The translations under genes and the position numbers were made by a program. The notes beneath the pieces are model-generated. The model worked only from the letters and a program-made list of their open reading frames with translations, had not been told where the DNA came from and made no database searches. DNA of 43,130 nt from Actinomycetes bacterium (GTDB lineage: Bacteria; Actinomycetota; Acidimicrobiia; Acidimicrobiales; RAAP-2): positions 1 through 43,130 of the forward strand of contig JAJXXA010000004.1 in assembly GCA_021781335.1 (NCBI GenBank), written 5' to 3'. Each line of letters starts with the position of its first letter. Within the stretch, counting starts at the first letter, position 1. Shown here piece after piece: positions 5,307 through 23,041 of this stretch.

Positions 5307-5340
5307 TTGGCGTGTTATAGTTATTATGTCATTATAAAGA
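5307..5340 (+). promoter_or_regulatory. Promoter/operator region of the aminotransferase-kinase-NagB unit
   Basis: An AT-rich block in otherwise GC-rich DNA. TTGGCG (5307-5312) and CATTAT (5330-5335) with 17 bases between them are possible -35/-10 boxes. Over them lies an interrupted palindrome 5315-5337 with arms TTATAGTTA and TGTCATTATAA (TTATA-x-T-x-A on each side). The 3' part GTCATTATAAAGA (5328-5340) recurs with one mismatch at 18299-18311, in front of the transporter/D-amino-acid genes. This is a candidate site for the GntR/UTRA regulator encoded at 8915-9697. Confidence 0.45.
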
Positions 5341-5352
5341 CTTAGGGGAAAC

Positions 5353-6711
5353 ATGACCAGCGAGTTCATTCATCCAGAGCGCTACGCCAAGTCCAGCGAA
5401 CTCTACGAAAAGGCGCTCAAAGTCATTCCAGGCGGCGTAAACAGCACCGCACGCGCCGCGTTCTCAGGATGGGAGCCGCATCCGATCTTCGTCGAAAGCG
5501 GCGAAGGCTCACACCTGACTGATGTCGACGGCAACACGTACATTGACTACCTCCTCGGGCTTGGGCCAATGCTTCTCGGCCATCGCCCCGCGTCGGTGAC
5601 GCGTGCGGTCGTCGAGCGAATCGAGAGTGCGGGAACCGTCTTTGCACTTCCAAGCGAACCCGAAATCGAATTGGCGCAGGGTATTGCCGACGTGATTCCG
5701 AGCGTAGACACCCTTCGAATTGTCAACAGTGGGACCGAGGGTGTTCTCTACAGTCTGCGACTCGCACGCGCATTCACTGGACGCAAGAAAATCATACGAT
5801 TCGAAGGTCAGTACCACGGATTTTCCGACGCGATCTATTGGTCCAAGCATCCAGACCTTGCACTCGCGGGTACTGATGAGCGACCTATAGCCCTGCCTCA
5901 AGGTCCGGGCGTTCCATCAGAGATGGGCGAATCGCTGATCATCGCGCAGTGGAACGATCTGGCGATGATCGAGCGCATCTTCGAGGAGAACCCCAACGAC
6001 ATCGCGGCAGTGATCACCGAACCCATCATGTGTAACACCGGTTGTATCTTGCCTCGCGACGGGTACCTCGAGGGCCTGCGCGAGATCACGACCCGCTACG
6101 GCGCACTTCTCATCTTTGACGAAGTCATCACTGGCTTTCGCATCGCACTCGGCGGAGCTCAACAGGCCCTTGGCGTGACGCCAGACCTGACCATCATGGC
6201 CAAGGGTCTCGGCGGAGGATTTCCCGTCGCGGCCCTCGGTGGACGACGCGACATCATGGATCTCGCGAGTGACGGACGTGTCTCCATTGCTGGAACGTAT
6301 TCTGGCAATACCATCGCCGTCGCCTCGGCCCTCGCGTCGCTGCGCTATCTCAAAGAAGAAGCGTCCTACGAGGACCTCTACCGACGATCAGACCAACTGA
6401 GAGAGGGCTTAGAGGGACTTATGCGTGACAAGTCGATCGAGGGATCGGTCGTCGGTATGGGCCCCGTGTATCAAGTGTGGTTCTCCGAGAGCGAGATCGC
6501 CAACTACCGTGACGCCGCTCGTCACGCCCGCGCCGACCTCTTTCGAATCTGGTGGGAAGAGATGCTCGACCGTGGTGTGCTGTTCCACCCGGGGCATCTT
6601 GAAAACCTGTTCCTCTCCTTCGCACACTCCGACGCCGACATCGACGCGACACTCGAGCGCGCCGACGCGAGTCTCGATGCCCTCCTCGTTCGTCGCAGTA
6701 CCAAGTCGTAA
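5353..6711 (+). CDS. Class-III PLP aminotransferase, glutamate-1-semialdehyde 2,1-aminomutase-like
   Basis: 452 residues of a fold-type-I, class-III aminotransferase. VIPGGVNSTARA near the N terminus, NSGTEGVLYSLRLARAFTGR (PLP phosphate region), IFDEVITGFRIALGGAQ and MAKGLGGGFPVAALGG with Lys284 as Schiff-base lysine all resemble HemL (GSAM). Next door are a sugar kinase and NagB rather than haem genes, so a catabolic transaminase or aminomutase acting on an amino sugar or amino aldehyde is likelier than tetrapyrrole synthesis; that is inference. The start is the ATG after AGGGGAA (5344-5350). It is first gene of a three-gene plus-strand unit and is followed after 21 bases by the kinase. Confidence 0.85.
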   Translation: MTSEFIHPERYAKSSELYEKALKVIPGGVNSTARAAFSGWEPHPIFVESGEGSHLTDVDGNTYIDYLLGLGPMLLGHRPASVTRAVVERIESAGTVFALPSEPEIELAQGIADVIPSVDTLRIVNSGTEGVLYSLRLARAFTGRKKIIRFEGQYHGFSDAIYWSKHPDLALAGTDERPIALPQGPGVPSEMGESLIIAQWNDLAMIERIFEENPNDIAAVITEPIMCNTGCILPRDGYLEGLREITTRYGALLIFDEVITGFRIALGGAQQALGVTPDLTIMAKGLGGGFPVAALGGRRDIMDLASDGRVSIAGTYSGNTIAVASALASLRYLKEEASYEDLYRRSDQLREGLEGLMRDKSIEGSVVGMGPVYQVWFSESEIANYRDAARHARADLFRIWWEEMLDRGVLFHPGHLENLFLSFAHSDADIDATLERADASLDALLVRRSTKS

Positions 6712-6732
6712 CGTCGAACCTACATTGAGATA

Positions 6733-8214
6733 GTGAGCAAGCCCATGCGCATCCTCGCCATCGACCTGGGAACGTCTCGCGTCAAAGTCGGTGTCGTTGA
6801 CGAGAACCTCGTCACTCGAGCCAGCTCCTCGCGTCAGTACCCGACTTTGACGAGCGACCCGGGTATGGCCGAGCAACGATCCCAGGACTGGTTGGGCGCC
6901 ATCAGCGCCGCAACGAAATCGGTACTCGAGACGGTCGATCCATTACGTATCGACGCAGTGGTCATGACCGCGCAGATGCCCACACTGGTCGCGCTGGACG
7001 AAGCGGGCAAAGTTATCGGCAACGCGGTCACGTGGCAGGACTCTCGTGCGGACTCCCTCGTCCTCTCGCACCTTGATCACCACGCGCGCGAACGCGTGCG
7101 CGTGTTGGCGGGCACCCCCATCGACGGCCGCTACATCATTCCCATGCACCTTCGACGCGGCGCTGAGCGCACGTATCGGCCAGCGACGCTCCTCTCGGCG
7201 AAGGACTACCTGTACTACGTACTCACATCCCACCTGGTCACCGATCCCTCAACTGCGTCGGGATTTGGAAACTTCGACATCACCGCAACGTCGTGGAGTG
7301 ATGAGCTAACGGGCCACTGGGGGATTGAGACGGATCTCTTGCCGCGTATCGTCGACCCGCATCACGCGGCGCCCTTGAGTCAAACCGGTGCAGCCTTGCT
7401 CGAAGGCGTGGCGCCCGGGACGCCGGTGGTGCTGGGTGCCGCCGACTCGGTGTGCGCGCACCATTTCATCACGACACTCTTCAACGACTCGGCGTCGGTG
7501 ATCGACGGTTCTTCAACGGTCATCATGGCCACGGTGCCGAGCGCGACGTCGGTCATCGGAGAACTCCTCGTTACACCACTCGTCGATCCTTCAACCTGCG
7601 GCGCCGAGATGGACCTGCTGTCGACGGGCTCGTCCATTGGATGGCTCGCGAGATTGCTCGCAGTGTCGCCTGAGGACCTTGAAGAACTGGCCATCACCAA
7701 TCCACGTCGTGTCGAGAATGAAGTGCTCTTCCTCCCCTACCTCGCTCGAGGCGAACAGGGTGTCATCTGGAGGTCGGACCTTGCGGGTTCGATCGATCGA
7801 CTCTCACTCGACGCCTCACGCGCAGATATCTCTCTCGCGCTCTTCGAAGGTATCGCCATCGAAACAATGCGCTGTATCGAAGTGCTGCAACACTCGCAGC
7901 CCCTCAAACGCGTGGTGTGCGTAAGTTCTCCTCGCAGCCGCCACCTCGGCGCGTCACTGCTCGACGCTCTGTTGGACATCCCGGTGCTCGCGCTCGCCCA
8001 ACAGAGCCCTTCGCTGCTCGGTGCAGCGCTCATCGGGCTCGAGTCCCTTGGCGACGGTTCGACGATTAGGAATCTCGAACCCCAGTCTCTCCTGGCTGAG
8101 GTTCCGCGATTCGAGACGACCTACCGCGACGCACTCGTGCGAAAGGCGCACGAATATCTGAAGATCGCCGCGCACGCGAGCGACCCACAACCCACACGGA
8201 GCACTCACGAATGA
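6733..8214 (+). CDS. FGGY-family carbohydrate kinase
   Basis: 493 residues with a GTG start (a Met at residue 5 is an alternative). The ATPase-fold phosphate-1 motif AIDLGTSRVKVG is at residues 9-20, the WQDSRA sugar-binding loop at 101-106, and the catalytic base Asp238 in GAADSVCA. LPYLARGEQGVIW corresponds to the GERTPHWD loop of xylulokinases but is diverged. FGGY kinases phosphorylate ketoses, polyols or sugar acids with ATP; the substrate cannot be read from the sequence. The altered loop and the NagB partner suggest an unusual, perhaps amino-substituted, sugar. The stop overlaps the nagB-like start as ATGA (8211-8214). Confidence 0.85.
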   Translation: MSKPMRILAIDLGTSRVKVGVVDENLVTRASSSRQYPTLTSDPGMAEQRSQDWLGAISAATKSVLETVDPLRIDAVVMTAQMPTLVALDEAGKVIGNAVTWQDSRADSLVLSHLDHHARERVRVLAGTPIDGRYIIPMHLRRGAERTYRPATLLSAKDYLYYVLTSHLVTDPSTASGFGNFDITATSWSDELTGHWGIETDLLPRIVDPHHAAPLSQTGAALLEGVAPGTPVVLGAADSVCAHHFITTLFNDSASVIDGSSTVIMATVPSATSVIGELLVTPLVDPSTCGAEMDLLSTGSSIGWLARLLAVSPEDLEELAITNPRRVENEVLFLPYLARGEQGVIWRSDLAGSIDRLSLDASRADISLALFEGIAIETMRCIEVLQHSQPLKRVVCVSSPRSRHLGASLLDALLDIPVLALAQQSPSLLGAALIGLESLGDGSTIRNLEPQSLLAEVPRFETTYRDALVRKAHEYLKIAAHASDPQPTRSTHE

Positions 8215-8918
8215 AACTCATCACCACTGATGGTCCCGAGGAGTTCGCCGCTGTCGCTGCGCACTATCTCATGCGCAAGGTGGATGAGAAGCCTGATCTC
8301 ACCTTGACCCTGCCCACCGGCAGCACGCCTGTCGGCCTCTACCGAGACCTTCGTGACGCGAGGCGGATGGGAGACTTCTCGCTCGATCACGCCACGGTCT
8401 TCATGTTGGACGAGTATCGGGACCTGCCTTCATATCCCGAAGGCAGCTTCATCGAATTTCTGCAAAACAACCTGGCTGAGGTCATCTTCAATGATTCAAC
8501 CACCGTCGTCACGATCGATCCCGAGGCGCCGCCGCATGCCTACGACCGTGCGCTCGATGAGGCACACGGACTCGATCTGGCGGTCATTGGCGTCGGACGA
8601 AACGGACACGTTGGCTTCAACGAACCCGGAGACGACTTCAGCGCACGCACCCACGTCGTCACATTGCACCAAGACACTCTGGACGCGAACTTCGCAGTCG
8701 TTTCAAGAAGTGACCGACCGACTCAAGCAATCACCATTGGAATGCCTGACCTTCGACACGCGCGCTCAGTCCTCATGCTCGTGTCGGGCAGCGAGAAGCG
8801 CGCCGTTGCCGATCTTCTCGCTGCGGGCATTATCGATGATCGCTTCCCCGCTACTCATCTTTTGGACCACGACGATCTCACCATCGTGATGGCGAGTGAA
8901 CTGCTGCGCAAGAGTTAG
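8211..8918 (+). CDS. Glucosamine-6-phosphate deaminase/isomerase family protein (NagB-like)
   Basis: 235 residues, slightly short for NagB. Motifs: LPTGSTPVGLY (phosphate loop, residues 34-44), FMLDEYRDL with Asp67/Glu68, GVGRNGHVGFNEPG with Asn131, His133 and Glu138, and GSEKRAVA with Lys196. The catalytic His and Glu are kept, and Asn in place of E. coli Asp141 is usual in Gram-positive NagB. The family converts glucosamine-6-phosphate to fructose-6-phosphate and ammonia; relatives act on other amino-sugar phosphates. No nagA is adjacent, so the phosphorylated substrate probably comes from the overlapping kinase gene. The stop overlaps the convergent gntR stop in TTAG (8915-8918). Confidence 0.85.
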   Translation: MKLITTDGPEEFAAVAAHYLMRKVDEKPDLTLTLPTGSTPVGLYRDLRDARRMGDFSLDHATVFMLDEYRDLPSYPEGSFIEFLQNNLAEVIFNDSTTVVTIDPEAPPHAYDRALDEAHGLDLAVIGVGRNGHVGFNEPGDDFSARTHVVTLHQDTLDANFAVVSRSDRPTQAITIGMPDLRHARSVLMLVSGSEKRAVADLLAAGIIDDRFPATHLLDHDDLTIVMASELLRKS

Positions 8919-9697
8919 TTGGACATGTTCGTGATGTCAACGGGATCAGCCGTTGGCGTCGAACGCAGTCGGAACGCAAACATGTGGGGTACGAAGACCA
9001 TCTCGAAACTGTCAAAAGCCGTACCGCTCGCCGTGATTGATACGCCCGTCACCTCAATGACGAAATTGTCATCGCCCAGACCGAGGTCGGCGGCTTCAGC
9101 GGGGGTCGCCCGGCGAGCCACGAGGGTCTGTTCCTCGAGCGACTCAGTGAGACCATAGAACTTCGAGAGCACTTCGTACAACGATTCCGTTGAAGGCGAG
9201 AAGAGCGTATCCAAGTCGGGTGCGAGAATTCGCGGAACAAACGCCACCTCTCGAACCGCGGGTACCTCATTGAATCTTCGCAGTCGCGTGATCTTCCAGA
9301 TTCCGGTGCCAATCGGGATTGAAAGCTTCTTCGCGTGCTCCGCGTCAGCCTTCTCCTCCTCAAGTGAGATGAGAGTCGTCGCCAACTGAATACCCTGCAG
9401 GGCGAGGGTCTGCTTGAGACCACCGATGATGGTCGATTCAGTTTGGATTCGGTTGGATCGAATGAAGGTACCTCGACCTTGAATGCGTTGCAGCGCGCCC
9501 GCCGCAACGAGTTCGGACATGGCTCGACGCACCGTCATCAGACTGACCCCGGCCATCGCGGCGATTTCTATCTCGGAAGGCAGACGGTCGCCTGGGACCA
9601 GGTTGTTATCCGCAATATATTTGCGGATGAATTCAATGGTGTTCTCGTAGAGAGTGATCCGAAGCTCCTTTGGAGTTGCCGTCACCGGCCCCAACAC
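8915..9697 (-). CDS. GntR-family transcriptional regulator, HutC/UTRA type
   Basis: 260 residues. A winged helix-turn-helix occupies about residues 14-77 (RLPSEIEIAAMAGVSLMTVR, then GRGTFI at the wing). A UTRA effector domain follows from about residue 95 to 240 (ITRLRRFNEVPAVREVAFVP). Regulators of this type bind small metabolites such as phosphorylated amino sugars (NagR/DasR) or histidine intermediates and usually repress the adjacent catabolic genes. It is the last gene of the long transporter unit, 10 bases after the serine hydrolase stop, and is convergent with nagB. It is the natural candidate to act at the AT-rich motifs at 5315-5340 and 18299-18322. Confidence 0.9.
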   Translation of the reverse strand: MLGPVTATPKELRITLYENTIEFIRKYIADNNLVPGDRLPSEIEIAAMAGVSLMTVRRAMSELVAAGALQRIQGRGTFIRSNRIQTESTIIGGLKQTLALQGIQLATTLISLEEEKADAEHAKKLSIPIGTGIWKITRLRRFNEVPAVREVAFVPRILAPDLDTLFSPSTESLYEVLSKFYGLTESLEEQTLVARRATPAEAADLGLGDDNFVIEVTGVSITASGTAFDSFEMVFVPHMFAFRLRSTPTADPVDITNMSN

Positions 9698-9707
9698 GTT
9701 ATGTCAT

Positions 9708-11426
9708 TCAATCACTAAAGGCACGCGAATAGTGACAGCCGTCACGAACCACGCTGATGACCTCGCCGTCTCGAACGTGATTGATTCGAAGGCGTTCGGG
9801 GAGCCACTCTTCGCTACCAATGCGATACTCCCCCCACGCGACTTCAACTAAGACCTCCTCCTCCCCCGGTGCCTCTACTCCGCCCGGGGCGACGAGCAGC
9901 AGTGCACCACCACGTTCGAGGATTCGAAATTCGGGAAACCAGGGAGAGAAGCTGCGATAGCGGCCGACCAGAGGATGCACTGCACCCGTCTTGGAGGGAA
10001 CGGTTCCACCCCCATGGACGTTGCGGTACGTCGTCGCTCCATAGGTGAAGCCGCGCTCCTCACCATGGAAGTACCAGTCAAGATGAAAAGTGCGCAGTCC
10101 CGGGTTGTCTGTGACGTAGCGTCCCCCGATGAGTCGAAAGAGGCGCCCAGTCTCGTCGCCATATCGAATGCGCATCTCGTCTCCCTCGAGGAAGACATCG
10201 AGTTCGGTCTCGTCGTCGCCAACGTAGTGCCCCGGGACGGCTCCATCAACCGGGTCGGCGCCTGCGCGTACGGTCAGATCGAAGGAGAGCCCATCAAGCG
10301 AGTCGCGCCCGTTCAAACGTCGCAGAACATCGTCGTGCACGATACGCGCGAGCAGATGAGATGCCAACGTATCGCCGTTGGCGTTGGTCAAAACAACCAC
10401 ACCGATGCGAGCCGTACAGTCAACAAGCATGAAGGTCGAGTACCCCACCATGCCCCCACCGTGGCTTACGCACAGATGTCCGTCAATGCGTTCAACATTG
10501 ATGCCCATTGCGTAGCGGCTCTCTTGCACTTGCGACACGCCCTGATGCACGTAGGTCGGTTCGCCAGTCGGTGCAAGGTCGCTCGTCATACGCTCAAAGA
10601 GAGCGGGGGATAGGACGGGTTTGGCTTCAGCGTCCATGACGGGATCGCCGCCACTGGCGCCGAGTAGAGCCTGGACGAGAGCGGTCATGTCAGCGCTAGT
10701 AGCCGCGATATTGCCGCTGGCCGAGTCAATTTCGAAGAATGCCGATGGACTAAGCGCATCACCGGGCGCCCAGGGATGATCGGGTCGGGTGGGCCAGTAT
10801 CCCGTTGCGAGCGAGGACTTATCGGCTTGGGTCACCTGAGCGAGCGCATTACTCATACCGAGCGGCCCGAGCCACTGCTTTTGCACGAAATCAGCGAGAC
10901 GTTGACCGCTACGCGCACGGACCATCTCACCGAGGATCAGGTATCCGAGGTTGGAATAGTGAAAGTTGGGCGACGTCGCGGTTGAGGACGCACACTCTCG
11001 CGAATTCCAGATCTCTCCAGCGTCATCGGGGAGCGTGTCGGCCCCCACGCTCATGCCCGACGTATGGTTCAACAAACGCGCAACGCTGACCGCCAGATTT
11101 TCATCGCTGAGCGCGAGCCAAGGCAATACGTCCGCAATCGTGTCGTGAAGCTGAAGGCGACCATCGTCGATCAGTCGATTAACCGCAAGGGCGGTAAAGA
11201 ACTTGCTGATCGAGCCAATCTCAAAACGCAACGACGACGACATCGCGATTCCACGCTCAACATCAGCAAAGCCAAAGCTCCGCTCGCCGAGCAGTCCCTC
11301 ACGATCAATGACGCTGACAACACCACCCGGGACGGGAAAGAACTTCGTGGCCTCGTCGAAGAGGTACGAGAGCGACGTGAGCGACGCACCAGCTACCTCG
11401 ATACGCCGCGCACGCGTTGCACTCAT
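9708..11426 (-). CDS. Serine hydrolase, beta-lactamase class C/DD-peptidase fold, with C-terminal beta domains
   Basis: 572 residues. The penicillin-recognising catalytic set is complete: Ser72-x-x-Lys75 in GSISK, Tyr157-Ser-Asn159 in HYSNLGY, and His322-Gly-Gly in SHGGGMVGYS. After about residue 385 come two beta-rich repeats (GHYVGDDETELDVF and GRYRSFSPWFPEFRI). Similar extensions occur in D-aminopeptidases and other non-lactamase members. There is no export signal, so it should act in the cytoplasm on imported substrate, plausibly releasing D-amino acids or cleaving an amide or ester. The ATG overlaps the M20 stop (ATGA, 11423-11426). Confidence 0.85.
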   Translation of the reverse strand: MSATRARRIEVAGASLTSLSYLFDEATKFFPVPGGVVSVIDREGLLGERSFGFADVERGIAMSSSLRFEIGSISKFFTALAVNRLIDDGRLQLHDTIADVLPWLALSDENLAVSVARLLNHTSGMSVGADTLPDDAGEIWNSRECASSTATSPNFHYSNLGYLILGEMVRARSGQRLADFVQKQWLGPLGMSNALAQVTQADKSSLATGYWPTRPDHPWAPGDALSPSAFFEIDSASGNIAATSADMTALVQALLGASGGDPVMDAEAKPVLSPALFERMTSDLAPTGEPTYVHQGVSQVQESRYAMGINVERIDGHLCVSHGGGMVGYSTFMLVDCTARIGVVVLTNANGDTLASHLLARIVHDDVLRRLNGRDSLDGLSFDLTVRAGADPVDGAVPGHYVGDDETELDVFLEGDEMRIRYGDETGRLFRLIGGRYVTDNPGLRTFHLDWYFHGEERGFTYGATTYRNVHGGGTVPSKTGAVHPLVGRYRSFSPWFPEFRILERGGALLLVAPGGVEAPGEEEVLVEVAWGEYRIGSEEWLPERLRINHVRDGEVISVVRDGCHYSRAFSD

Positions 11427-12601
11427 GAGAGAATCTCGACAATCGTGTCGACCAGGATGTCAACGCTCGTCACCGCTTCGGGAATTGAGATCCATTCGTT
11501 AGGGCTGTGAAAGTTGCCGCCAAGGGGACCGAACATGACCGTGGGCGTCCCCGCCGCCTGCATGAGCGCCGCGTCAGTCCACGCATTGAGACCGACCGCA
11601 TCGATGTCACTCCCCATATTTTTCAAGGTGGCACTTCGCAGACTTTCGAGCAGCGCCTCATGACCATTGGCCAAAAATGGTTCTCGATCGAGTCGAACCT
11701 TCACTTCACCACTCAGCCCAGGCATCTCGGCGACGACCGTGGCGATAATTGCTTCAATTTCACGCACGCGATCTGCCAATGTCTCTCCCGGTTGGGTGCC
11801 AATCTCGATGCCCAAGACGGCTTGGCTGGGGTAGGTGGCGTAGTCAGTGCCCCCGCGCACGGTACCGGTGTGAAACACCGTGCGGCCGTTACGAGGTTCC
11901 GGAACACCAGCAAAGTGCTCGAGGTCCCACGCGTGCAAGCGACTGAGCACCTCGGCCAGTCCAACGATCGCGTCAACGCCCTGGTCGGGAGTTGATCCGT
12001 GCGCTGCACGACCACCGATCACGATATCGAGCCACCCGAACCCTTGATGCTCGACGATCATCTTGGGCAGTGCGTCGGCTTCAAGCACGATGGCCAGATC
12101 CGGCTTCATCGTACGAACGAGATGCTCTGTGCCGATCGATATGCCTTCTTCGTCCGCGACGCATGCGACGATCAGGTCACCGCGTAGTTGCACGCCCGAC
12201 GTAGCGATTCGTCGTAGCGCCAGAAGTGCGATGGCACAACATCCCTTGTCGTCAGCGGCTCCAAGACCATAGAGACGATCGCCTTCAAGTCGTGGCACGA
12301 GTGCTTCATCGGGCCATCCGGCATATCCAACCGTGTCGGCGTGGGCATTCAGACACAAGCTTGGACCTTCGCCTGATCCGTGAAGCGTCGCGATGAAGTT
12401 CTGACGTCCTGGTGCAATCTCTTGAATCTCGACTTGTACAGCGAGGTCCGCCACCCACTGCGTGAAGTACTGCACGACCTCAGCCTCGCCGGCCCCTCCC
12501 TCGACGAGCCAAGGTGTGACCGAGTCGATACGAACCAGGTCGCTGATCAAATCAATGACATCCTGGGCTGCGGTAGGGGCTGCGGTGCGGTTGGTACTCA
12601 T
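11423..12601 (-). CDS. M20-family metallohydrolase (ArgE/DapE-type deacylase/peptidase)
   Basis: 392 residues. Di-metal site motifs are all present: NAHADT (His88, Asp90), GLGAADDKG (bridging Asp117), VADEEG (Glu151 catalytic base, Glu152), VLEAD, and FHSPNEW near the C terminus. M20 enzymes hydrolyse N-acyl amino acids (ArgE), N-succinyl-diaminopimelate (DapE) or dipeptides. Location between the peptide-transporter ATPases and the serine hydrolase indicates processing of the imported compound rather than biosynthesis. Its start overlaps the upstream OppF stop by one base (TAATG). No signal peptide is visible, so it is cytoplasmic. Confidence 0.88.
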   Translation of the reverse strand: MSTNRTAAPTAAQDVIDLISDLVRIDSVTPWLVEGGAGEAEVVQYFTQWVADLAVQVEIQEIAPGRQNFIATLHGSGEGPSLCLNAHADTVGYAGWPDEALVPRLEGDRLYGLGAADDKGCCAIALLALRRIATSGVQLRGDLIVACVADEEGISIGTEHLVRTMKPDLAIVLEADALPKMIVEHQGFGWLDIVIGGRAAHGSTPDQGVDAIVGLAEVLSRLHAWDLEHFAGVPEPRNGRTVFHTGTVRGGTDYATYPSQAVLGIEIGTQPGETLADRVREIEAIIATVVAEMPGLSGEVKVRLDREPFLANGHEALLESLRSATLKNMGSDIDAVGLNAWTDAALMQAAGTPTVMFGPLGGNFHSPNEWISIPEAVTSVDILVDTIVEILS

Positions 12602-13665
12602 TATGACTCCTCTGATGAGAAATGGCAGGCCGCTTCGTGCGGGCTGAGGGCTGACGTGTCTTCATTAGTCGTGGTTCTTGGGCGAATGACGTGAAGCTGA
12701 GGGTCTACGCTTCGACACTGCTCAGGCTTACCCAGTTCGATGTAGCGAGGGCACCGGGGGTGGAAGCGACACCCTTCGGGAACGTTCGAGGCCGACGGCG
12801 TCTCACCGGGCAAGGCTTCGATCAATTCACCATCGGGTCCCACATCATCACCGCTCGACACGCTGAGAAGTGCCGCGGTATAGGGATGCGCGGGCCGCTC
12901 CACCAAACGCGTCGCTGGTCCAATCTCCACGATTCGCCCGAGATACACCACCGCAATCCGATCCGCCACCACCCAGGCAACTGCAAGATCGTGGGTGATG
13001 AACAGGTACGACGTTCCCAGTTGATCTCTGAGGTCCATCATTAATCGAAGGATTCCCGCGCGCGCCGAGACATCGAGCATGGACACTGGTTCGTCCGCGA
13101 TCACCAATTCTGGGCGCATGACCATCGCAGACGCGATTGCAACCCGTTGACGTTGACCCCCAGACAATTCGTGCGGGTAACTCTGTGCAAGGCGTTCTGG
13201 CGGGCGTAAATGCGCAAGCTCGAGCGCATCCATGACCATCGAACGACGTTCTTCAGGTGTGGCGCCCAACTTGTGAATGACGAGGGGCTCGGCCACGGTG
13301 TCAAACACCGTTTGACGCGAATTCAGTGAACCGAACGGGTCTTGGAAGATCATCTGGATCCGTCGACGGGCCTGGCGAAGCGCTCCACCTCGGAGTGTGG
13401 CTAGGTTCTCCCCTCCCGAGATGATGCGACCCGAGGTTGGCTCGAGCAATCGCATCACCGCCAGTGCGATCGTCGATTTTCCGCATCCCGACTCGCCCAC
13501 CAAGGCCAGGATCTCACCTTGCTCGATATCGAACGACACACCGTCTACCGCTCTCACCGCTCTAGCGCGACGCCCCTTACCTCGGCCAGCGAAACGCACT
13601 ACGAGGTCGCGCACCTCAAGGACTCGTGCGCGCGTGGTTTCAGACTGCTCAGCAGTAACGCTCAT
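12601..13665 (-). CDS. Oligopeptide/dipeptide ABC transporter ATPase (OppF/DppF type)
   Basis: Starts at ATG 13665, which overlaps the oppD-type stop in ATGA (13662-13665); a start at 13692 inside the upstream gene is less likely. The 354-residue ATPase has Walker A LVGESGCGKST, ABC signature ELSGGQRQR, Walker B LVIADEPVSMLDV, and the C-terminal oligopeptide-transporter extension with GCRFHPRCP...C cysteines. ADEPVSMLDV replaces the usual ADEPVSALDV. It powers the permease pair encoded downstream in map order. Confidence 0.93.
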   Translation of the reverse strand: MSVTAEQSETTRARVLEVRDLVVRFAGRGKGRRARAVRAVDGVSFDIEQGEILALVGESGCGKSTIALAVMRLLEPTSGRIISGGENLATLRGGALRQARRRIQMIFQDPFGSLNSRQTVFDTVAEPLVIHKLGATPEERRSMVMDALELAHLRPPERLAQSYPHELSGGQRQRVAIASAMVMRPELVIADEPVSMLDVSARAGILRLMMDLRDQLGTSYLFITHDLAVAWVVADRIAVVYLGRIVEIGPATRLVERPAHPYTAALLSVSSGDDVGPDGELIEALPGETPSASNVPEGCRFHPRCPRYIELGKPEQCRSVDPQLHVIRPRTTTNEDTSALSPHEAACHFSSEES

Positions 13666-14648
13666 GCTCCCACTTTCTTCAAGAGATGGCACGACGCGGT
13701 GTGACCCTCTGAAATCGTCACGGTTGGTGGAACGATCTCGCGACAGACCGACATCGCCGAGGGGCAGCGATCTGCAAAACGACAGCCAGTGATCGGCTTG
13801 GAGAGATCCGGCGGGTGTCCCGCCAGTCCCGGGGCCAACACTCGCTCACCGCGCAGGTCCGGGTGCGCGCCTATGAGAGCCTGCGTGTAAGGATGCGCTG
13901 CCAGTGCTGACTCGCCACGTCGACCGAGCACTTGCTCGGTCGTACCAGTTTCCACTACCACCCCCGCGTACATAACGACGATTCGATCGCACACTCGCTT
14001 GATTGCGGAGAGATCGTGCGAGATCATCAGAACACTCAGATCCTCGGATCTACGAAGTGAACTCAGCAACGCCAAGATCTGGGCTTGGCTGATGACATCA
14101 AGTGCGGTTGTTGGTTCGTCGGCGATCAACAATGAGGGTCGGCACGCGAGTGCCATGGCAATCATCGCGCGCTGACGCATGCCGCCAGAGAACTCGTGCG
14201 GATAGCTTTTCGCGCGTGCGGGGGCGATACCCACAAGATCCAACAGTTCGAGTACGCGCTGGCTCGACTCCTCCTTAGCGGCGTGAGAGTCGTGGGCAGA
14301 AATTGCTTCAAGGATTTGTCGATCGACTCGCTGAACGGGATTGAGCGCGTTCATCGCGCCTTGGAAAACAAAGGCGACCGCAGTCCAGCGCAACCGATTG
14401 AGTTGCGCCTCATTCATACCCACAAGCTCGTGATCCGCCAATTTGATCGAGCCACTCGAGATCGTCGCATTACCCGGTAGGAGCATTGGTACCGAGAGAC
14501 CAAGCGACGTCTTGCCGCAGCCAGACTCACCGACCACACCCAACGCTTCACCCGCTTCGATACGAAGACTCACGTGATCAACAGCTCGAAGCGAGCCCGT
14601 GCCGACTCGATAATCGACGCTGAGATTGTCAATCTCCAAGAGACTCAT
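13662..14648 (-). CDS. Oligopeptide/dipeptide ABC transporter ATPase (OppD/DppD type)
   Basis: 328 residues: Walker A GVVGESGCGKTS, signature EFSGGMRQR, Walker B LLIADEPTTALDV, H-loop MISHDLSAIKR, and C-terminal GCRFADRCPSAMSVC typical of OppD. GMRQR instead of GQRQR in the signature is normal for OppD. It pairs with the downstream OppF-like subunit. The ATG start overlaps the OppC-like stop as ATGA (14645-14648). Confidence 0.94.
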   Translation of the reverse strand: MSLLEIDNLSVDYRVGTGSLRAVDHVSLRIEAGEALGVVGESGCGKTSLGLSVPMLLPGNATISSGSIKLADHELVGMNEAQLNRLRWTAVAFVFQGAMNALNPVQRVDRQILEAISAHDSHAAKEESSQRVLELLDLVGIAPARAKSYPHEFSGGMRQRAMIAMALACRPSLLIADEPTTALDVISQAQILALLSSLRRSEDLSVLMISHDLSAIKRVCDRIVVMYAGVVVETGTTEQVLGRRGESALAAHPYTQALIGAHPDLRGERVLAPGLAGHPPDLSKPITGCRFADRCPSAMSVCREIVPPTVTISEGHTASCHLLKKVGA

Positions 14649-15562
14649 TCTTCACCTCGAAGCAACGGGTTGAGCACGCGGTCCAGACTGTGACCCACCA
14701 GCGAGAACGCCAAGACCATCACGACGATTCCCACACCTGGTGTCATGACGTACCACCACGCACCTTGACTCATGGCGCCCGAGTTGAAGGCGTTGTGTAA
14801 CGTCGTACCCCACGACACCTGCACGGGATCGCCCAAGCCAAGGAACGCAAGCGCTGCTTGGGCGAGGACTGCACCTGAGAGCACGAGAGCCAAATTCGCG
14901 AAGATGAGTGGCGCCACGTTCGGCAAGATGTGCTTTCGCATGATACGAAGGTCACCTGCTCCGAGAGAACGCACGCGTTGGACGAGGGGTCGTTCGCGAA
15001 GAGAGAGCACCTGGGACCTGATTATGCGCGCCGTCTGGGGCCAACTCGTGAGTCCAATAACGAGACTCGTCACAAAGATGCTCTGACCAAAGAGAGCTGC
15101 GAGAACAATGATCAGGGGCAAGGTGGGCAGCACGAGAAAGAAATCGGTGATGCGCATCAGAACCGTGTCACGCCAACCGGCGTAGTAACCCGAGATCAGA
15201 CCGAGGCCCGCGCCGAGCACGATCGCAATGAGCGTTGCGGACAAGCCTACGTACAGCGATATCCGCCCACCAACGAGAAATTGGCGAAAGACGTCCTGGC
15301 CCAACTCGGTGGTTCCCATCCAGTGGGCTCGCGAAGGTGCTTGGAGGATTGAGGCTGCTGAGGTTCCAAAGGACTGGGAGTCGAAGGGAAAGATGATCGG
15401 GCCGATCATGATGACCACCAACACGATGGCCAGCATTATCAGTCCCGAACGCCCCATTGGATCGTGCCACAGACTCTTCCAGATCCCGCGACGGGGTCGC
15501 GACACAACGTGATCAAACTGATCAGGAGGAAGAGCATCCATGGCGTCGTCGAGTTCACTCAC
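14645..15562 (-). CDS. Peptide ABC transporter permease (OppC/DppC type)
   Basis: 305 residues. A cytoplasmic N-terminal stretch is followed by the first helix (GLIMLAIVLVVIMIGPIIF), the large loop with HWMGTTELGQDVF characteristic of OppC/DppC, and the EAA coupling loop around SLGAGDLRIMRKHILPN. Five or six transmembrane helices are likely. The start is GTG, overlapping the OppB stop in GTGA (15559-15562). Confidence 0.93.
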   Translation of the reverse strand: MSELDDAMDALPPDQFDHVVSRPRRGIWKSLWHDPMGRSGLIMLAIVLVVIMIGPIIFPFDSQSFGTSAASILQAPSRAHWMGTTELGQDVFRQFLVGGRISLYVGLSATLIAIVLGAGLGLISGYYAGWRDTVLMRITDFFLVLPTLPLIIVLAALFGQSIFVTSLVIGLTSWPQTARIIRSQVLSLRERPLVQRVRSLGAGDLRIMRKHILPNVAPLIFANLALVLSGAVLAQAALAFLGLGDPVQVSWGTTLHNAFNSGAMSQGAWWYVMTPGVGIVVMVLAFSLVGHSLDRVLNPLLRGEE

Positions 15563-16527
15563 GTCCGGCGCACCCTTGGATCAAGGACTTGGTACAAGAG
15601 GTCGCTGATGAAGTTGGTCGCGATCACCGCAATGGCGAAGAGCAGGAAACAACCTTCGAGCACCGGATAGTCACGCTGGACCACCGAGTTGTAGATGAGC
15701 AGACCCATGCCCGGCCAAGAGAAAACCGTCTCAACCTGAATGGCGCCACCGAGGATCATGCCGACATAGAGCGCCGTCGCGGTGACAATGGGCAACATAG
15801 CGTTACGAAGTGCGTGTCGCCAGACAATGGTGCGGCGTTGTAGTCCTTTGGCTCGAGCGGTCAGCATGTAATCCTCGACCATGACATCGACCAGCGTATT
15901 TCGAGAAATCAGAGAGAACTCAGCGGCGTTGACGAAGGTCAGCGTCAGTGCTGGCAGGATGAGGTGGCGCCCGACGTCAACAATGTGACCCCACGTGCCC
16001 GTTACGAGACCTGGCGTCACCAAACCAGAGATCGGAAGGACGTGGGTCCATACACCGCAGATAAAGATCAGAATCATGCCAGTAAAGAAGTCGGGCATGC
16101 TCCAAAGAGCAAGGCTCGTTACGGTGATCGAAGCATCCGTGAGAGAGTGCGCGCGAGACGCCGCCATGACGCCGAGCCACACTCCTACCAAAATCGTCAC
16201 GAGTGTGGCCGTGCCAACGAGCAGGAGCGTGTTGCCTATGGCGCCCCCGAGCACGGTAGTCACCGGCTTTCGATAGACGTAGGAGAAGCCCAAGTCGCCA
16301 TGCACCATGTTTCTCAGATAGATGAAGTACTGGGCTAGCAACGGATGATTAAGTCCGAAGAGTTTGATCAGTTGCGCTCGCGCGGCGGGGTCGTAGTGTC
16401 CCGAGCGCGCAAGTAGCTGGATGGGGCTGCCGGGCAGCACATGAAACAACAGGAAGTTGAATGACACAGTGACGTACAGGGTCACGACGAGTGTGGCCAG
16501 TTTCCTGGTGAGGTACCGCGCGCTCAT
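15559..16527 (-). CDS. Peptide ABC transporter permease (OppB/DppB type)
   Basis: 322 residues with the OppB N-terminal layout (YLTRKLATLVVTLYVTVSF and FHVLPGSP), LRNMVHGDLGFSYVYRKPV, and the EAA loop ARAKGLQRRTIVWRHALRN. It forms the membrane channel with the OppC-like protein. It begins 40 bases after the solute-binding-protein stop; no terminator-like hairpin is seen in this gap, so it is probably cotranscribed. Confidence 0.94.
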   Translation of the reverse strand: MSARYLTRKLATLVVTLYVTVSFNFLLFHVLPGSPIQLLARSGHYDPAARAQLIKLFGLNHPLLAQYFIYLRNMVHGDLGFSYVYRKPVTTVLGGAIGNTLLLVGTATLVTILVGVWLGVMAASRAHSLTDASITVTSLALWSMPDFFTGMILIFICGVWTHVLPISGLVTPGLVTGTWGHIVDVGRHLILPALTLTFVNAAEFSLISRNTLVDVMVEDYMLTARAKGLQRRTIVWRHALRNAMLPIVTATALYVGMILGGAIQVETVFSWPGMGLLIYNSVVQRDYPVLEGCFLLFAIAVIATNFISDLLYQVLDPRVRRT

Positions 16528-16567: not shown

Positions 16568-18235
16568 CTATCTCGGTGTGATCTTCAGATAGTTGTCACG
16601 GGTGAAGTTGTACACCATTCCGCCGCGAGTGGGCACCCAACCCTTCCATGTGTCAGTTCGATACGCCTGTAGCTTGCTCTGGTACCACATCACGAGATAA
16701 GCGGCATCTTCGTAGAAGAGTTTTTGGATGTCGTGCACCAGCGGTACGCGCTGGGCGGGATTAGGAGTCGTTGCCTGCTTGTTATACAGCGCGTCGTATG
16801 TGCGGTTGGAATAGAACACGTCATTGTTGTTGCCGATCTGGTTGGTCAGCGGCACGCTCAAGAGATAGTCGGGGTCGGGCGTCCCCGAATCCCAGCCCCA
16901 GATGAAGATGTCCCAATTGGGATTGCTGTTATAGACAATGTTGCCTAACGTCGTTCCGTCGAGAGTCTCGAGGGTAAGTTTTATGCCCACTGCCTCGGCG
17001 AATTTGACAAACATCTGCCCCGCCAGGACGTCTTCATCGGTGGTCGCGATTGCGATCAAACGAAAACTCAATGGTTTGCCATGCTTGTCTTGTCGAATGC
17101 CGTTCGGGCCGACATGATACCCAGCCGCGTCGAGGATCCTCTTCGCTTTGGCGGGGTTGTTGTTGATCTGCTGAGAACTCGGAATCTTCTCCTGCCATTT
17201 GCCAAACGAGGGAGGGAGCTGCACGCTGCCAGGAATGCCGTGTCCCGCGAGCGCCAATTCAACGAGTTGGGAACGATCAAGTGAATACCCCAATGCTTGA
17301 CGGATGGTCTGATCGAGAAGGAGCGGGTTCCCACCTGATTTTGGATTCTTCGAGACATTGATCCCAATGTGATGAAAAGAGAACGACTCCATCTCAACTG
17401 GTTTCACATTCGCCTTACCCTTTAGGCCGTTCCAAAGAACGGGCGGCACCTCGGTGAGGATGTCGAGTTGTCCTGACGCGAGACTCTGCACCATGACATC
17501 GCTGTTCTCGAACTGGGTCCAAATGATGCTCTTCGCCGCTGGTCGAGCTCCCCACCACCCAGGATTCCGGTCGACCTGCACGTACTGACCACTCACCCAC
17601 TTCTTGAACTTGTACGGACCGGTACCAATCGGATTGGGATTGTTGTAACTCAGGATCTTCGACGGCGTCATAGCTCCCCAGATGTGTGCGGGCACGATCG
17701 GAATCGCGAGTGCGGGGTCGAAGGCCTGGGGCAATTTATAGTTCACAGTCACCTTGTTGGCATTGACAATCACCACCGAGTCAAAATCCGCGAGACTCCA
17801 CGCAGCTTGGCCGAGATTGTGCTTTGCCATGATCTCAAAGGTGTACTTGACATCATTGGCACTAAAAGGGGTGCCGTCATGCCACTTAACTCCAGGGCGC
17901 AACTGGTAGGTGAAGGACTTCCCGTCGGCACTCACCGACGAGTGGGCGGCGAGCGACGGCTCTGGGTTCAGTTGAATGTCATATTCAAGCAAGGTGTCGT
18001 AGATCAGCCAGAGGATTTCATTAGACGCAGTGGTTGTGAACGTGAAGGGGTTCATGACGTCTGGCGGTGTCGTCCAGCCGACTCGAAGCGTCGAATTTTG
18101 TGCAGCAGTGGCTCCCGCGGGCGTCGATTCGACGACTCCCGCCATACCAATCGCCCCAGCGGAAGCCGCTCCCAGAGCGAAAAATTTCCTTCTCGTCAGG
18201 AATTGTGCAGCCTCATCAACGTCGTTTTCCTTCAT
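16568..18235 (-). CDS. ABC transporter substrate-binding protein, family 5 (OppA/DppA), Tat-exported
   Basis: 555 residues. The N terminus carries a twin-arginine signal TRRKFFALG (residues 14-22), a hydrophobic stretch and an Ala-rich end near ATAAQ; no lipobox cysteine follows. The mature part has the SBP_bac_5 signatures (LRPGVKWHDGTPFSANDVKY; GTGPYKFKKW; RQALGYSLDR). It captures peptides or peptide-like ligands outside the membrane for the OppBCDF-like importer. A strong GAGGGGGAG ribosome binding site precedes the ATG, and a TATAAT box lies upstream at 18302-18307 (minus strand). First gene of the long catabolic operon. Confidence 0.92.
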   Translation of the reverse strand: MKENDVDEAAQFLTRRKFFALGAASAGAIGMAGVVESTPAGATAAQNSTLRVGWTTPPDVMNPFTFTTTASNEILWLIYDTLLEYDIQLNPEPSLAAHSSVSADGKSFTYQLRPGVKWHDGTPFSANDVKYTFEIMAKHNLGQAAWSLADFDSVVIVNANKVTVNYKLPQAFDPALAIPIVPAHIWGAMTPSKILSYNNPNPIGTGPYKFKKWVSGQYVQVDRNPGWWGARPAAKSIIWTQFENSDVMVQSLASGQLDILTEVPPVLWNGLKGKANVKPVEMESFSFHHIGINVSKNPKSGGNPLLLDQTIRQALGYSLDRSQLVELALAGHGIPGSVQLPPSFGKWQEKIPSSQQINNNPAKAKRILDAAGYHVGPNGIRQDKHGKPLSFRLIAIATTDEDVLAGQMFVKFAEAVGIKLTLETLDGTTLGNIVYNSNPNWDIFIWGWDSGTPDPDYLLSVPLTNQIGNNNDVFYSNRTYDALYNKQATTPNPAQRVPLVHDIQKLFYEDAAYLVMWYQSKLQAYRTDTWKGWVPTRGGMVYNFTRDNYLKITPR

Positions 18236-18298
18236 TGTTGCTCCCCCTCGGAAACTAGATGATCACGTAAAAACCCAGAACCCATCACAACTCAGTAA

Positions 18299-18330
18299 GA
18301 CATTATAAAGATAGTATCTTTACACGTAAT
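18299..18330. promoter_or_regulatory. Divergent promoter/operator: perfect inverted repeat with TATAAT box
   Basis: TAAAGATA-G-TATCTTTA at 18306-18322 is a perfect 8-base-arm palindrome. On the minus strand a consensus TATAAT occupies 18307-18302, with a weak -35 candidate (TTACGT, 18329-18324), so the repeat fills the spacer of the transporter promoter. GACATTATAAAGA (18299-18311) matches the motif at 5328-5340 in 12 of 13 bases. The element also lies upstream of the D-threonine-aldolase-like gene on the plus strand. A repressor bound here could control both directions. Confidence 0.55.
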
Positions 18331-18440
18331 ATGCGTCAAGTACTTCTGTACTTTTCTAAGAACAGAGGGCGCCAAGGCGATATTCGCACAAGATTATGGC
18401 GACACGCACGCGGTGCGGGAAGCGAGGAGGAATTATCGGC

Positions 18441-19535
18441 ATGCAGGTGTTCGATGTCGACACCCCCGCACTGGTCATAGATCTGGACCGAGTGGAGGAC
18501 AACATTACGTCAATGTCCGCACGTGCGCGTGCGGGGGGCGTACGGCTGCGACCACATACAAAGACCCACAAGATGCCCGACATCGCGCGTCTCCAAATTG
18601 ACGCCGGCGCCTCCGGAATCACGTGCGCAAAGTTGGGCGAGGCCGAAGTAATGGTCGACGCGGGATTTGACGACATCCTCATCGCATTTCCCATCTATGG
18701 CGACGCGAAGTTAGCTCGACTCCAGGCGCTGAGAAAGAGGGCGCGCATTCAGGTCACACTCGATTCCCTCGAGGTCGCACGAGGTCTCGGCACACTCGGG
18801 GTCGCAAGTGGCGAGCCAGTCGAGGTCTTCGTTGAAGTGGACACAGGACTGCACCGAATGGGTCTCGAACCTGGTGACGCCACCGTAGAACTTGTCGTTC
18901 GTCTGAGTGAAATAGCGGGTATCGAGATTGTCGGATTCTTGACCCACGCAGGTCATGCCTACGGCGTCGAGGATCGAGATCAGCGAGCTGCCCTTGTGAG
19001 TCGCGAGGTGGGCGATCTTCTGTCGACAAGGCACCGCCTCAGTGAACTCGGCATCTGGGTGCGCGAGATCAGTGTGGGTTCCACGCCCACGGTGGTGCAA
19101 GAAGCGCAGCAAAGAGGTGTGACCGAGGTCCGACCAGGTACGTACGTGTTCAATGACACCACAATGATCCGCCACGGAGTTGCCACCCAGTCCACGTGTG
19201 CTGCCCACGTGATCGCTACGGTCGTGAGCCGACCTCGACCCGATCGGTTTGTTGTCGACGCAGGTACCAAGTGCCTGACTTCCGACGGTGCCGATCAGCC
19301 GGGGTGGATTCAGTTTGCAGGTCGCGAAGAGTTGACGATGGAGTTCATGAACGAGGAGCATGGTGTTGGACGAATCGATGTCTCGCGGGGTTCTTCTCTT
19401 TCCATTGGTGACAAGGTGCTCATGATTCCAAGCCACGTTTGTCCAGTAGTCAACCTTTTTGATTACGCCATCAGCACGCGCGGTGAACGTGTGGTCGGCC
19501 AGCTGGAAGTCGCTGGCCGCGGCAAGGTGCGCTGA
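18441..19535 (+). CDS. D-threonine aldolase/D-serine dehydratase-family PLP enzyme (fold type III)
   Basis: Start chosen at ATG 18441, ten bases after AGGAGG (18425-18430), giving 364 residues; the upstream ATG at 18396 lacks a site. RPHTKTHKMP holds PLP Lys41, GLHRMG and SVGSTPT are phosphate/substrate loops, and SHVCPVVNLFD near the end has His332-x-Cys334. In this family an HxC metal pair is found in D-serine and D-hydroxyaspartate dehydratases, whereas D-threonine aldolases have HxD. So a metal-dependent D-hydroxyamino-acid dehydratase yielding a 2-oxo acid and ammonia is favoured, with aldolase second. It diverges from the peptide-transporter operon across the shared operator. Confidence 0.85.
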   Translation: MQVFDVDTPALVIDLDRVEDNITSMSARARAGGVRLRPHTKTHKMPDIARLQIDAGASGITCAKLGEAEVMVDAGFDDILIAFPIYGDAKLARLQALRKRARIQVTLDSLEVARGLGTLGVASGEPVEVFVEVDTGLHRMGLEPGDATVELVVRLSEIAGIEIVGFLTHAGHAYGVEDRDQRAALVSREVGDLLSTRHRLSELGIWVREISVGSTPTVVQEAQQRGVTEVRPGTYVFNDTTMIRHGVATQSTCAAHVIATVVSRPRPDRFVVDAGTKCLTSDGADQPGWIQFAGREELTMEFMNEEHGVGRIDVSRGSSLSIGDKVLMIPSHVCPVVNLFDYAISTRGERVVGQLEVAGRGKVR

Positions 19536-21718: not shown

Positions 21719-23041
21719 CTATCGAGGTCGAAACTTCTCCAAGTCGGCACCCACCGACCTCAGCACGGTCTCGTCGAGCTCAGCGGTTGCCGCGAACTCT
21801 GGCCAGGCGCCAACCGCCTCGATGACCTCATGGACGATTGACCTGTAGCCCGGCACCTCTTGACGGTCGCCCACGATGTAGAGGTCATTGAGGGTGATCG
21901 CCTCGGTCTTGGCGTTGACGCGAAGGTTGTGACGACTCGTCCACTCGCTGTTGGCCCGATACGCGTGGGTGATGTCAAAGGCGGGTGCCAATTCCCACGG
22001 GCCCTCACGTCTTCGCATGAACGCGAAGTTCTTCGTGTGATCGTCGCGGTTCACCGCGGCGACGTTAAAGACCATGCGCCGATACGCCTGTTCCAGGCTC
22101 GAGAGCCCGAGCCCCAGTTGCTTGAGCGAACTCAGATACTGGTCGTAGCTGTGCACCCCGACGAGTCGCTGGTCAAGGTGCGCCAATGCCGCTAGTGAGA
22201 GGACGTGGATGCGACCTCCGTCACTCTCTCGATCGAAACGGCGCGTCATGAAATGTCGTCGCGGTCCCTCTGCGAGCAAGTAACAAGGTGCCATGTCGAC
22301 ACCCGCGGCACTCGCCATCAGGCTGTAGGCGTACTCAATACGTCCGTAGGGTGCGCTCTCACCGAGTCCGTCACCGTGGCCGTCCATGCCGGTAGCGCTC
22401 ACGCCATCGAGCTTGATGATCCAGTGTTCAAAACCCGCCCCAAGTGGCCCAAAGGCCGACGCGAGTTGGTACGTCACGGGATTGAACGCGATCACGGCCT
22501 TGGCCCGCGCGCCGCCGGCGCTGGAACCCACGTGGATGAGTTGCTGGATCGCCGAGTGGGCGCCGGAGTCGTCGGCCAACTCGCCGCGCACCGTGAGACG
22601 CGCGGCGCGTACGAGGTCGGCCAACGCGATCGCTGATGGAGCCTCTCGAGCAGCGTCATCGGCGGGTGGGCGAAACTCGAGCGCGCCCATAGCCCGGTCT
22701 GCCGCGTAGGCCAAGCGGTCGAGGGGTGTGATGTTCTCGAGCGAGACGCCGTGCTCGGCCATCCAGGCATTCACCAGGGCGTTACCAAAAGCGTCCGGCA
22801 GACTGTCGGCGAGCAGTGGGACCAACCCGTGAAAGGCGTCTGGGGCGAGCTCGGGCCATTGGCCGAGTTCGTAGGGCGCCTCACGAAGGGGCATCGTGAG
22901 TGGGGAGAGTTCGACACCGCTCGAAATCCAATCAGGAGTGAAGGCGAAGACGTATCGACCGCTTCTCGGGTCAGGTGCCACGACACCGACGCGAGTGCCC
23001 CACGCCCAGACCTCGACGTAGGCGAGTTGACGGTAGCTCAC
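21719..23041 (-). CDS. hipA: HipA-family toxin kinase of a type II toxin-antitoxin pair
   Basis: 440 residues, the same length as E. coli HipA. SSAGGARAKA (173-182) is the Gly/Ser-rich loop carrying the autophosphorylated serine in HipA; IIKLDG holds Lys210 of the ATP site; NRDDHTKN (331-338) is the catalytic loop and APAFDITHA (Asp356) the metal-binding DFD-like motif. HipA phosphorylates glutamyl-tRNA synthetase or other aminoacyl-tRNA synthetases and halts growth. All kinase residues appear intact, so it should be active. The GTG start overlaps the hipB stop in GTGA (23038-23041). Confidence 0.92.
   Translation of the reverse strand: MSYRQLAYVEVWAWGTRVGVVAPDPRSGRYVFAFTPDWISSGVELSPLTMPLREAPYELGQWPELAPDAFHGLVPLLADSLPDAFGNALVNAWMAEHGVSLENITPLDRLAYAADRAMGALEFRPPADDAAREAPSAIALADLVRAARLTVRGELADDSGAHSAIQQLIHVGSSAGGARAKAVIAFNPVTYQLASAFGPLGAGFEHWIIKLDGVSATGMDGHGDGLGESAPYGRIEYAYSLMASAAGVDMAPCYLLAEGPRRHFMTRRFDRESDGGRIHVLSLAALAHLDQRLVGVHSYDQYLSSLKQLGLGLSSLEQAYRRMVFNVAAVNRDDHTKNFAFMRRREGPWELAPAFDITHAYRANSEWTSRHNLRVNAKTEAITLNDLYIVGDRQEVPGYRSIVHEVIEAVGAWPEFAATAELDETVLRSVGADLEKFRPR

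Follow-up and report, generated by a model that had tools for sequence, protein, structure and literature searches.

The window analyzed here, a stretch of 43,130 nucleotides, contains a 17-bp perfect palindrome within the 205-bp gap between a leftward gene for a solute-binding protein and a rightward D-serine dehydratase-like gene. What is this palindrome for, and which protein, if any, reads it? An earlier note had reported the repeat and proposed that it serves direct repression of the transporter genes. The repeat itself was borne out: TAAAGATA-G-TATCTTTA, in full TAAAGATAGTATCTTTA, matches the window letters exactly at positions 18306-18322. We argue below that it is probably part of a compound operator that covers the transporter operon's core promoter and predicted start and is read by the operon's own GntR/HutC repressor.

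The palindrome and the transporter promoter

The first gene after the palindrome promoter (16568-18235, minus strand) encodes a peptide-type solute-binding protein (SBP_bac_5). It is followed on the same strand by genes for two permeases and two ATPases of a peptide ABC transporter (DppB, C, D, F type; 12601-16527), a β-lactamase-family hydrolase and an M20 peptidase (9708-12601), and a GntR/UTRA regulator of the HutC type (8915-9697). All of these genes share a strand, and the spacing between neighbors runs from -31 to +40 bp, so the operon beginning at the palindrome probably ends with the regulator gene. The plus-strand genes that converge on it (5353-8918) encode a HemL-like aminotransferase (AT), a kinase of the FGGY type, and a NagB-like deaminase/isomerase. 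The AT gene (5353-6711) is not the same as the HemL-like gene carried on contig C61, with which it shares 40% identity, and its place beside the kinase and NagB-like genes suggests a role in amino-sugar or amino-acid catabolism rather than heme synthesis. The divergent plus-strand gene, which resembles D-serine dehydratase and 3-hydroxy-D-aspartate aldolase, occupies 18441-19535; the start given mechanically to its open reading frame (18396) is probably wrong, and orthologous sequences and a GGAGG, both read by eye, favor 18441. The window also contains, at 21719-23041, a reading frame that looks HipA-like.

A strict palindrome search of the window and the genome revealed no regulon. No second copy of TAAAGATAGTATCTTTA with up to three mismatches occurs in the rest of the window, and 0 of 100 shuffles yielded one. 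In the whole 2.02-Mb genome, the sole other match (C7:9673) carries three mismatches.

The earlier note had named TATAAT as the consensus -10 element of the transporter promoter and had placed the palindrome between this hexamer and its -35 position. TATAAT is indeed present on the minus strand (18307-18302), but the sequence at its -35 position (18325-18330) is ATTACG, which is poor. A better and conserved alternative, scored with unsourced hexamer frequencies, is TTGACG (18339-18334) followed after 17 nucleotides by TACTAT (18316-18311), also on the minus strand. The pattern TTGAC(A/G/T)-N17-TACT(A/G)T occurs in 9 of 11 orthologous transporter promoters and is absent from those of genomes G158 and G129. 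When we aligned 10 orthologous upstream regions (G129 was removed beforehand), the main conserved block consisted of the -35 element, the -10 element, and then a TATA(A/T)TG stretch. As this is the conserved promoter, the -10 element is probably TACTAT, and TATAAT probably lies at the start site, which the usual spacing would put near 18304. The -10 element of G158 and G129 may instead be TATAAT. The palindrome does overlap the predicted core promoter, as had been claimed, but the conserved -10 hexamer lies within it.

Another inverted repeat, AAGTACttctGTACTT (AAGTAC-ttct-GTACTT, 18338-18353), overlaps the -35 region. We rejected this candidate, as the nearest relatives do not preserve it.

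A 14-bp element at two promoters

At the predicted start of the transporter operon is a 14-bp element, GACATTATAAAGAT (18299-18312, plus strand), that includes the TATAAT hexamer and that we predict to be a repressor operator. Its center lies 9 bp from that of the palindrome, and half of the palindrome is common to both. The region can be read as three half-sites of the type GTC(A/T)TTA: H1 (GACATTA, 18299-18305), H2 (TAAAGAT, 18306-18312) and, after the triplet AGT, H3 (ATCTTTA, 18316-18322). H1 and H2 make up the 14-bp element, and H2 and H3 make up the palindrome. Under either assignment of the -10 hexamer, the element falls in the predicted core promoter; measured against the predicted TTGACG-N17-TACTAT, the site would lie within the span from -35 to about +20 of an active promoter by which we define an operator of this kind.

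A second predicted operator, GTCATTATAAAGAC (5328-5341, plus strand), lies upstream of the AT operon. Inspection by eye revealed two further features beside it: a possible accessory half-site, GTTATTAT (5320-5327, plus strand), which forms a direct repeat 8 bp from GTCATTAT, and a likely -10 element of the AT operon, TATAGT (5316-5321, plus strand), which is of the TA-A-T type in 9 of 10 orthologs. The sites at 5328-5341 and 18299-18312 have CATTATAAAGA in common, and words of at least 11 bp were shared in 29 of 3000 paired draws. CATTATAAAGAY has exactly two copies in the genome, at the transporter and AT promoters; as this sequence was drawn from those two sites, the informative result is that it occurs nowhere else. 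We judged a match to CATTATAAAGAY with one mismatch (C111:2785), which lies in an apparently unrelated frame near the end of the stretch examined, to be due to chance. A direct repeat with an 11-bp period, GACATTAT-AAA-GATAGTAT, of an OmpR/PhoB-like kind, was considered and dropped, as its second copy is missing at the AT promoters.

By itself, the 14-mer is not specific. With up to two mismatches, an idealized 14-mer matched 87 of 172 family genomes, while its reversed control matched 33 of 172 (table count), and most of the genomes matched by the 14-mer lack this operon. GTCATGATGATGAC is one of the matches listed at this tolerance.

We examined the element in relatives that carry the two operons. 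The transporter gene was detected in 12 of the 172 family genomes (E ≤1e-60); G131, truncated at a contig end, was excluded from every transporter-promoter count, leaving 11. Close AT orthologs (E ≤1e-150) occur in 11 of the 172 genomes, and all 11 (10 plus G125) have the element upstream. Using a 14-bp position weight matrix trained on 10 AT-promoter sites, with empirical p values from 300 draws per region, we found that the best match was the corresponding element in all 11 transporter upstream regions (p 0.003-0.020). For the AT regions, the result was also 11 of 11 (p 0.003-0.017); this set consisted of 10 regions scored with their own clade left out and the region of the distant L050, and G125 was not part of it. 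Because resemblance to the transporter site played a part in choosing the AT sites, and because the genomes share ancestry, this cross-prediction is not wholly independent. In two of the five clades, the transporter promoter has the same central triplet as the AT promoter (aaa/aaa and aag/aag); in the other three, the triplets differ.

The matrix also identified sites at 7 of 7 upstream regions of an amino-acid permease gene (p 0.003-0.007). Four of these regions (G158, G141, G129, and L050) are divergent from AT and use the same site, while the sites of G137, G139, and G108 are independent of the AT region. Six of the 12 genomes have orthologs of this permease with at least 79% identity, and the others have only 33-35% paralogs or nothing; the seventh region is that of L050. 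In the relatives' predicted regulon the permease gene is either divergent from AT or has its own operator, and the window genome has only a 35% paralog. Apparent membership of the permease in the predicted regulon was also noted for L065, L066, and L068, as for L050.

A degenerate pattern built on the AT and transporter sites was searched for in the 12 genomes. Nineteen of its 22 rows fell at transporter, AT, or permease promoters, the permease sites of G137, G139, and G108 being new finds; a reversed-pattern control gave 4 matches. The three rows elsewhere (G000:C48, G137:C73, and G158:C48) were judged to be chance or coding matches.

The symmetry of the palindrome is distributed differently from the element. 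At the window's transporter promoter, 8 of 8 pairs of the 17-mer are symmetric versus 4 of 7 pairs of the 14-mer, the values seen in four genomes in all (G000, G115, G149, and G108). The 17-mer has 6-7 of 8 symmetric pairs in G075, G139, G137, and G118 (14-mer, 3/7), 3 of 8 in both G141 (14-mer, 5/7) and G158 (14-mer, 6/7), and 0 of 8 in G129 (14-mer, 3/7). Because the element is kept in 11 of 11 promoters while the symmetry decays to 3/8 or 0/8, the 14-bp element appears to be general and the perfect palindrome a lineage-specific elaboration. The claim that the 17-bp dyad is a regulatory site holds insofar as it overlaps a predicted regulator site shared by two promoters, but the dyad as such is kept only in close relatives. 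The third half, H3, would be either an accessory half-site or the -10 element itself.

One explanation is that the overlap between an AT-rich promoter and an operator gave rise to the perfect symmetry by chance, and that the promoter and the 14-mer are the functional parts. We regard this as possible, if rather unlikely; it is compatible with the compound operator that we favor, and the two are not exclusive. A 17-bp perfect repeat is not rare for 43 kb, as the window contains three perfect inverted repeats (arms of at least 8, spacer of 0-1), where 20 first-order Markov draws averaged 1.65. For the intergenic region 18236-18440 alone, however, such a repeat arose in just 15 of 3000 Markov draws. 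Similarly, although the right arm erodes with distance among the relatives, the palindrome is identical in four genomes despite partly diverged flanks.

It is doubtful that the 17-bp palindrome is itself the operator, whether of this GntR protein or of another regulator, with the 14-bp element secondary. The loss of symmetry in G141, G158, and G129 argues against this possibility, as do the failure to see the right arm by eye at AT or permease promoters and the lack of a further close copy in the genome. What the proposal would explain is the full symmetry in the four genomes with partly diverged flanks and the near-full symmetry in four more, eight genomes in which the 14-mer is poorly symmetric (3-4 of 7 pairs).

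The divergent gene

Control of the plus-strand D-amino-acid gene from the palindrome site, a possibility raised in the earlier note, is plausible. In FadR- or HutC-type divergons, a single site usually controls both operons (PMC4494728, in excerpt). Our promoter search found no convincing candidate for a plus-strand promoter of this gene. In three genomes of clade B (G139, G137, and G118), only 72-75 bp separate the core from the start of the divergent gene; because of this short distance, a shared control region is likely in these genomes, and a bidirectional -10 element (TAGTAT/TACTAT) is possible.

That the palindrome is simply a symmetric bidirectional promoter for the transporter operon and the D-amino-acid gene, owing its symmetry to this role without any regulator, seems improbable: a plus-strand TAGTAT (18312-18317) does overlap the minus-strand TACTAT, the predicted starts are about 20 bp apart, near the 18 bp given as the commonest spacing at bidirectional promoters (PMC12825309, in excerpt), and in the three clade B genomes no later plus-strand -10 among the six listed scores better, but the plus-strand hexamer lacks a -35 element in all eight genomes that have TAGTAT (by the unsourced hexamer frequencies), other plus-strand candidates are equal or better, such as TAATAT at 18327-18332 in the window, and the shared element at 5328-5341 is left unexplained. 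Our locus resembles the shared -10 promoters of that excerpt in having overlapping, symmetric -10-like hexamers between divergent genes; it differs in the lack of a plus-strand -35 element and in the extra element shared with a distant promoter.

The GntR/UTRA protein as candidate reader

Returning to the compound operator, we consider the GntR/HutC protein encoded at 8915-9697 the likeliest reader of both predicted operators. It has an N-terminal GntR helix-turn-helix domain (66.9 bits; Pfam cut-off, 27) and a C-terminal UTRA domain (78.6 bits; cut-off, 23.8). The genome encodes three GntR domains above the Pfam cut-off, including this one, and one below it. Orthologs of the regulator are present in 9 of the 12 genomes with the transporter gene. 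None was found in G129, G131, or G139, whose absences are uncertain since these genomes are in 140-210 contigs and the gene could fall at contig ends. In a sample of 395 genomes of the class, the regulator was detected in two, both of this genus (E ≤1e-45). A search of genome contigs yielded 10 regulator loci, of which eight are 63-97% identical, one is 56% identical, and one is only 32% identical over the helix-turn-helix. In the 56%-identical relative, the regulator gene lies beside an apparent AT operon, as judged from frame length and reading, and the element lies between AT and a permease-like frame.

The closest solved relatives by sequence are NagR (YvoA) of Bacillus subtilis (E 3e-22) and DasR of Streptomyces (E 8e-17), whose operators are the dre sites. 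The regulator here resembles these systems in having a NagB-like gene as its neighbor and in being the final gene of a transporter operon. Arg38 and Arg48 are the residues with which NagR reads its operator, contacting G (PMC4333415, in excerpt). In the protein studied here, by contrast, they align with I43 (I, V, N, or Q in orthologs) and with L53, which is invariant; none of the 9 aligned sequences has either arginine. HutC operators normally contain GT-N4-AC, with the consensus NyGTMTAKACNy (PMC4494728, in excerpt); by eye, this canonical core is absent from GACATTATAAAGAT and GTCATTATAAAGAC. Since both G-reading arginines are replaced, a non-canonical operator, unlike GT-N4-AC, would be expected. 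What ties the protein to the sites is position, co-occurrence, and this arginine argument.

The excerpted source describes an exception within the HutC subfamily, the SdhR operator TCTTATGTCTTATATAAGACATAAGA (PMC4494728). Compared as operators only, SdhR's site and ours share an AT-rich nested symmetry and repeated (G)TC-TTAT half-sites (cf. GTCATTATGTCATTATGTAGACATAATG at the G108 permease promoter), and they differ in repeat period, which by eye is 7 there versus 8 here. Weaker neighboring half-sites are also reported for GntR-family operators in the same excerpt. Our literature searches returned nothing bacterial by title for the motif words, nothing relevant among the matches listed for GntR sites in this lineage, and, for SdhR, nothing that we recognized beyond the excerpted PMC4494728.

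If the compound operator functions as we propose, the unit read by the regulator would most likely be the 14-bp near-palindrome of the type GTCATTATAATGAC, and the mirroring of its right half, TAAAGAT, by ATCTTTA (a third half-site or a -10-linked sequence) would have produced the 17-bp palindrome. The GntR/HutC protein would bind at 18299-18312 and 5328-5341 and block RNA polymerase at both promoters until a metabolite releases it; an amino-sugar phosphate and a peptide or D-amino-acid product are candidates. The outcome would be negative autoregulation together with control of the neighboring AT operon. Direct repression would then be the likeliest role of the site, in agreement with the earlier note and with the sharing of the element by two promoters, but the -10 hexamer and the recognized unit named there are probably off.

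A more specific version, which we hold only tentatively and short of even expectation, is that a HutC repressor without both guanine-reading arginines and without the canonical GT-N4-AC operator reads GTCATTAT-type half-sites that have been rearranged between promoters. These would occur as a 14-bp inverted pair, as 8-bp direct repeats, and as the outward-facing pair that forms the 17-bp palindrome, with one half-site doubling as a -10 element.

The proposed arrangement of repressor and operator is ordinary in kind, with a recognition sequence that is somewhat unusual. An isolated palindrome is thereby linked to a candidate regulator, to a predicted regulon of two operons (three in relatives), and to a recognition code open to testing; the relatives of this lineage named here are all metagenome-assembled genomes. 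The missing arginines and the new half-site would make this a clean case for a specificity shift in the GntR family.

Among the contigs that encode the regulator, JABBNY010000041.1 (L042) is labeled Acidobacteria, while the relatives are labeled actinobacterial. Its regulator is 97% identical to that of the window, and both L042 and G115:C109 are 16290 long; the Acidobacteria label looks wrong.
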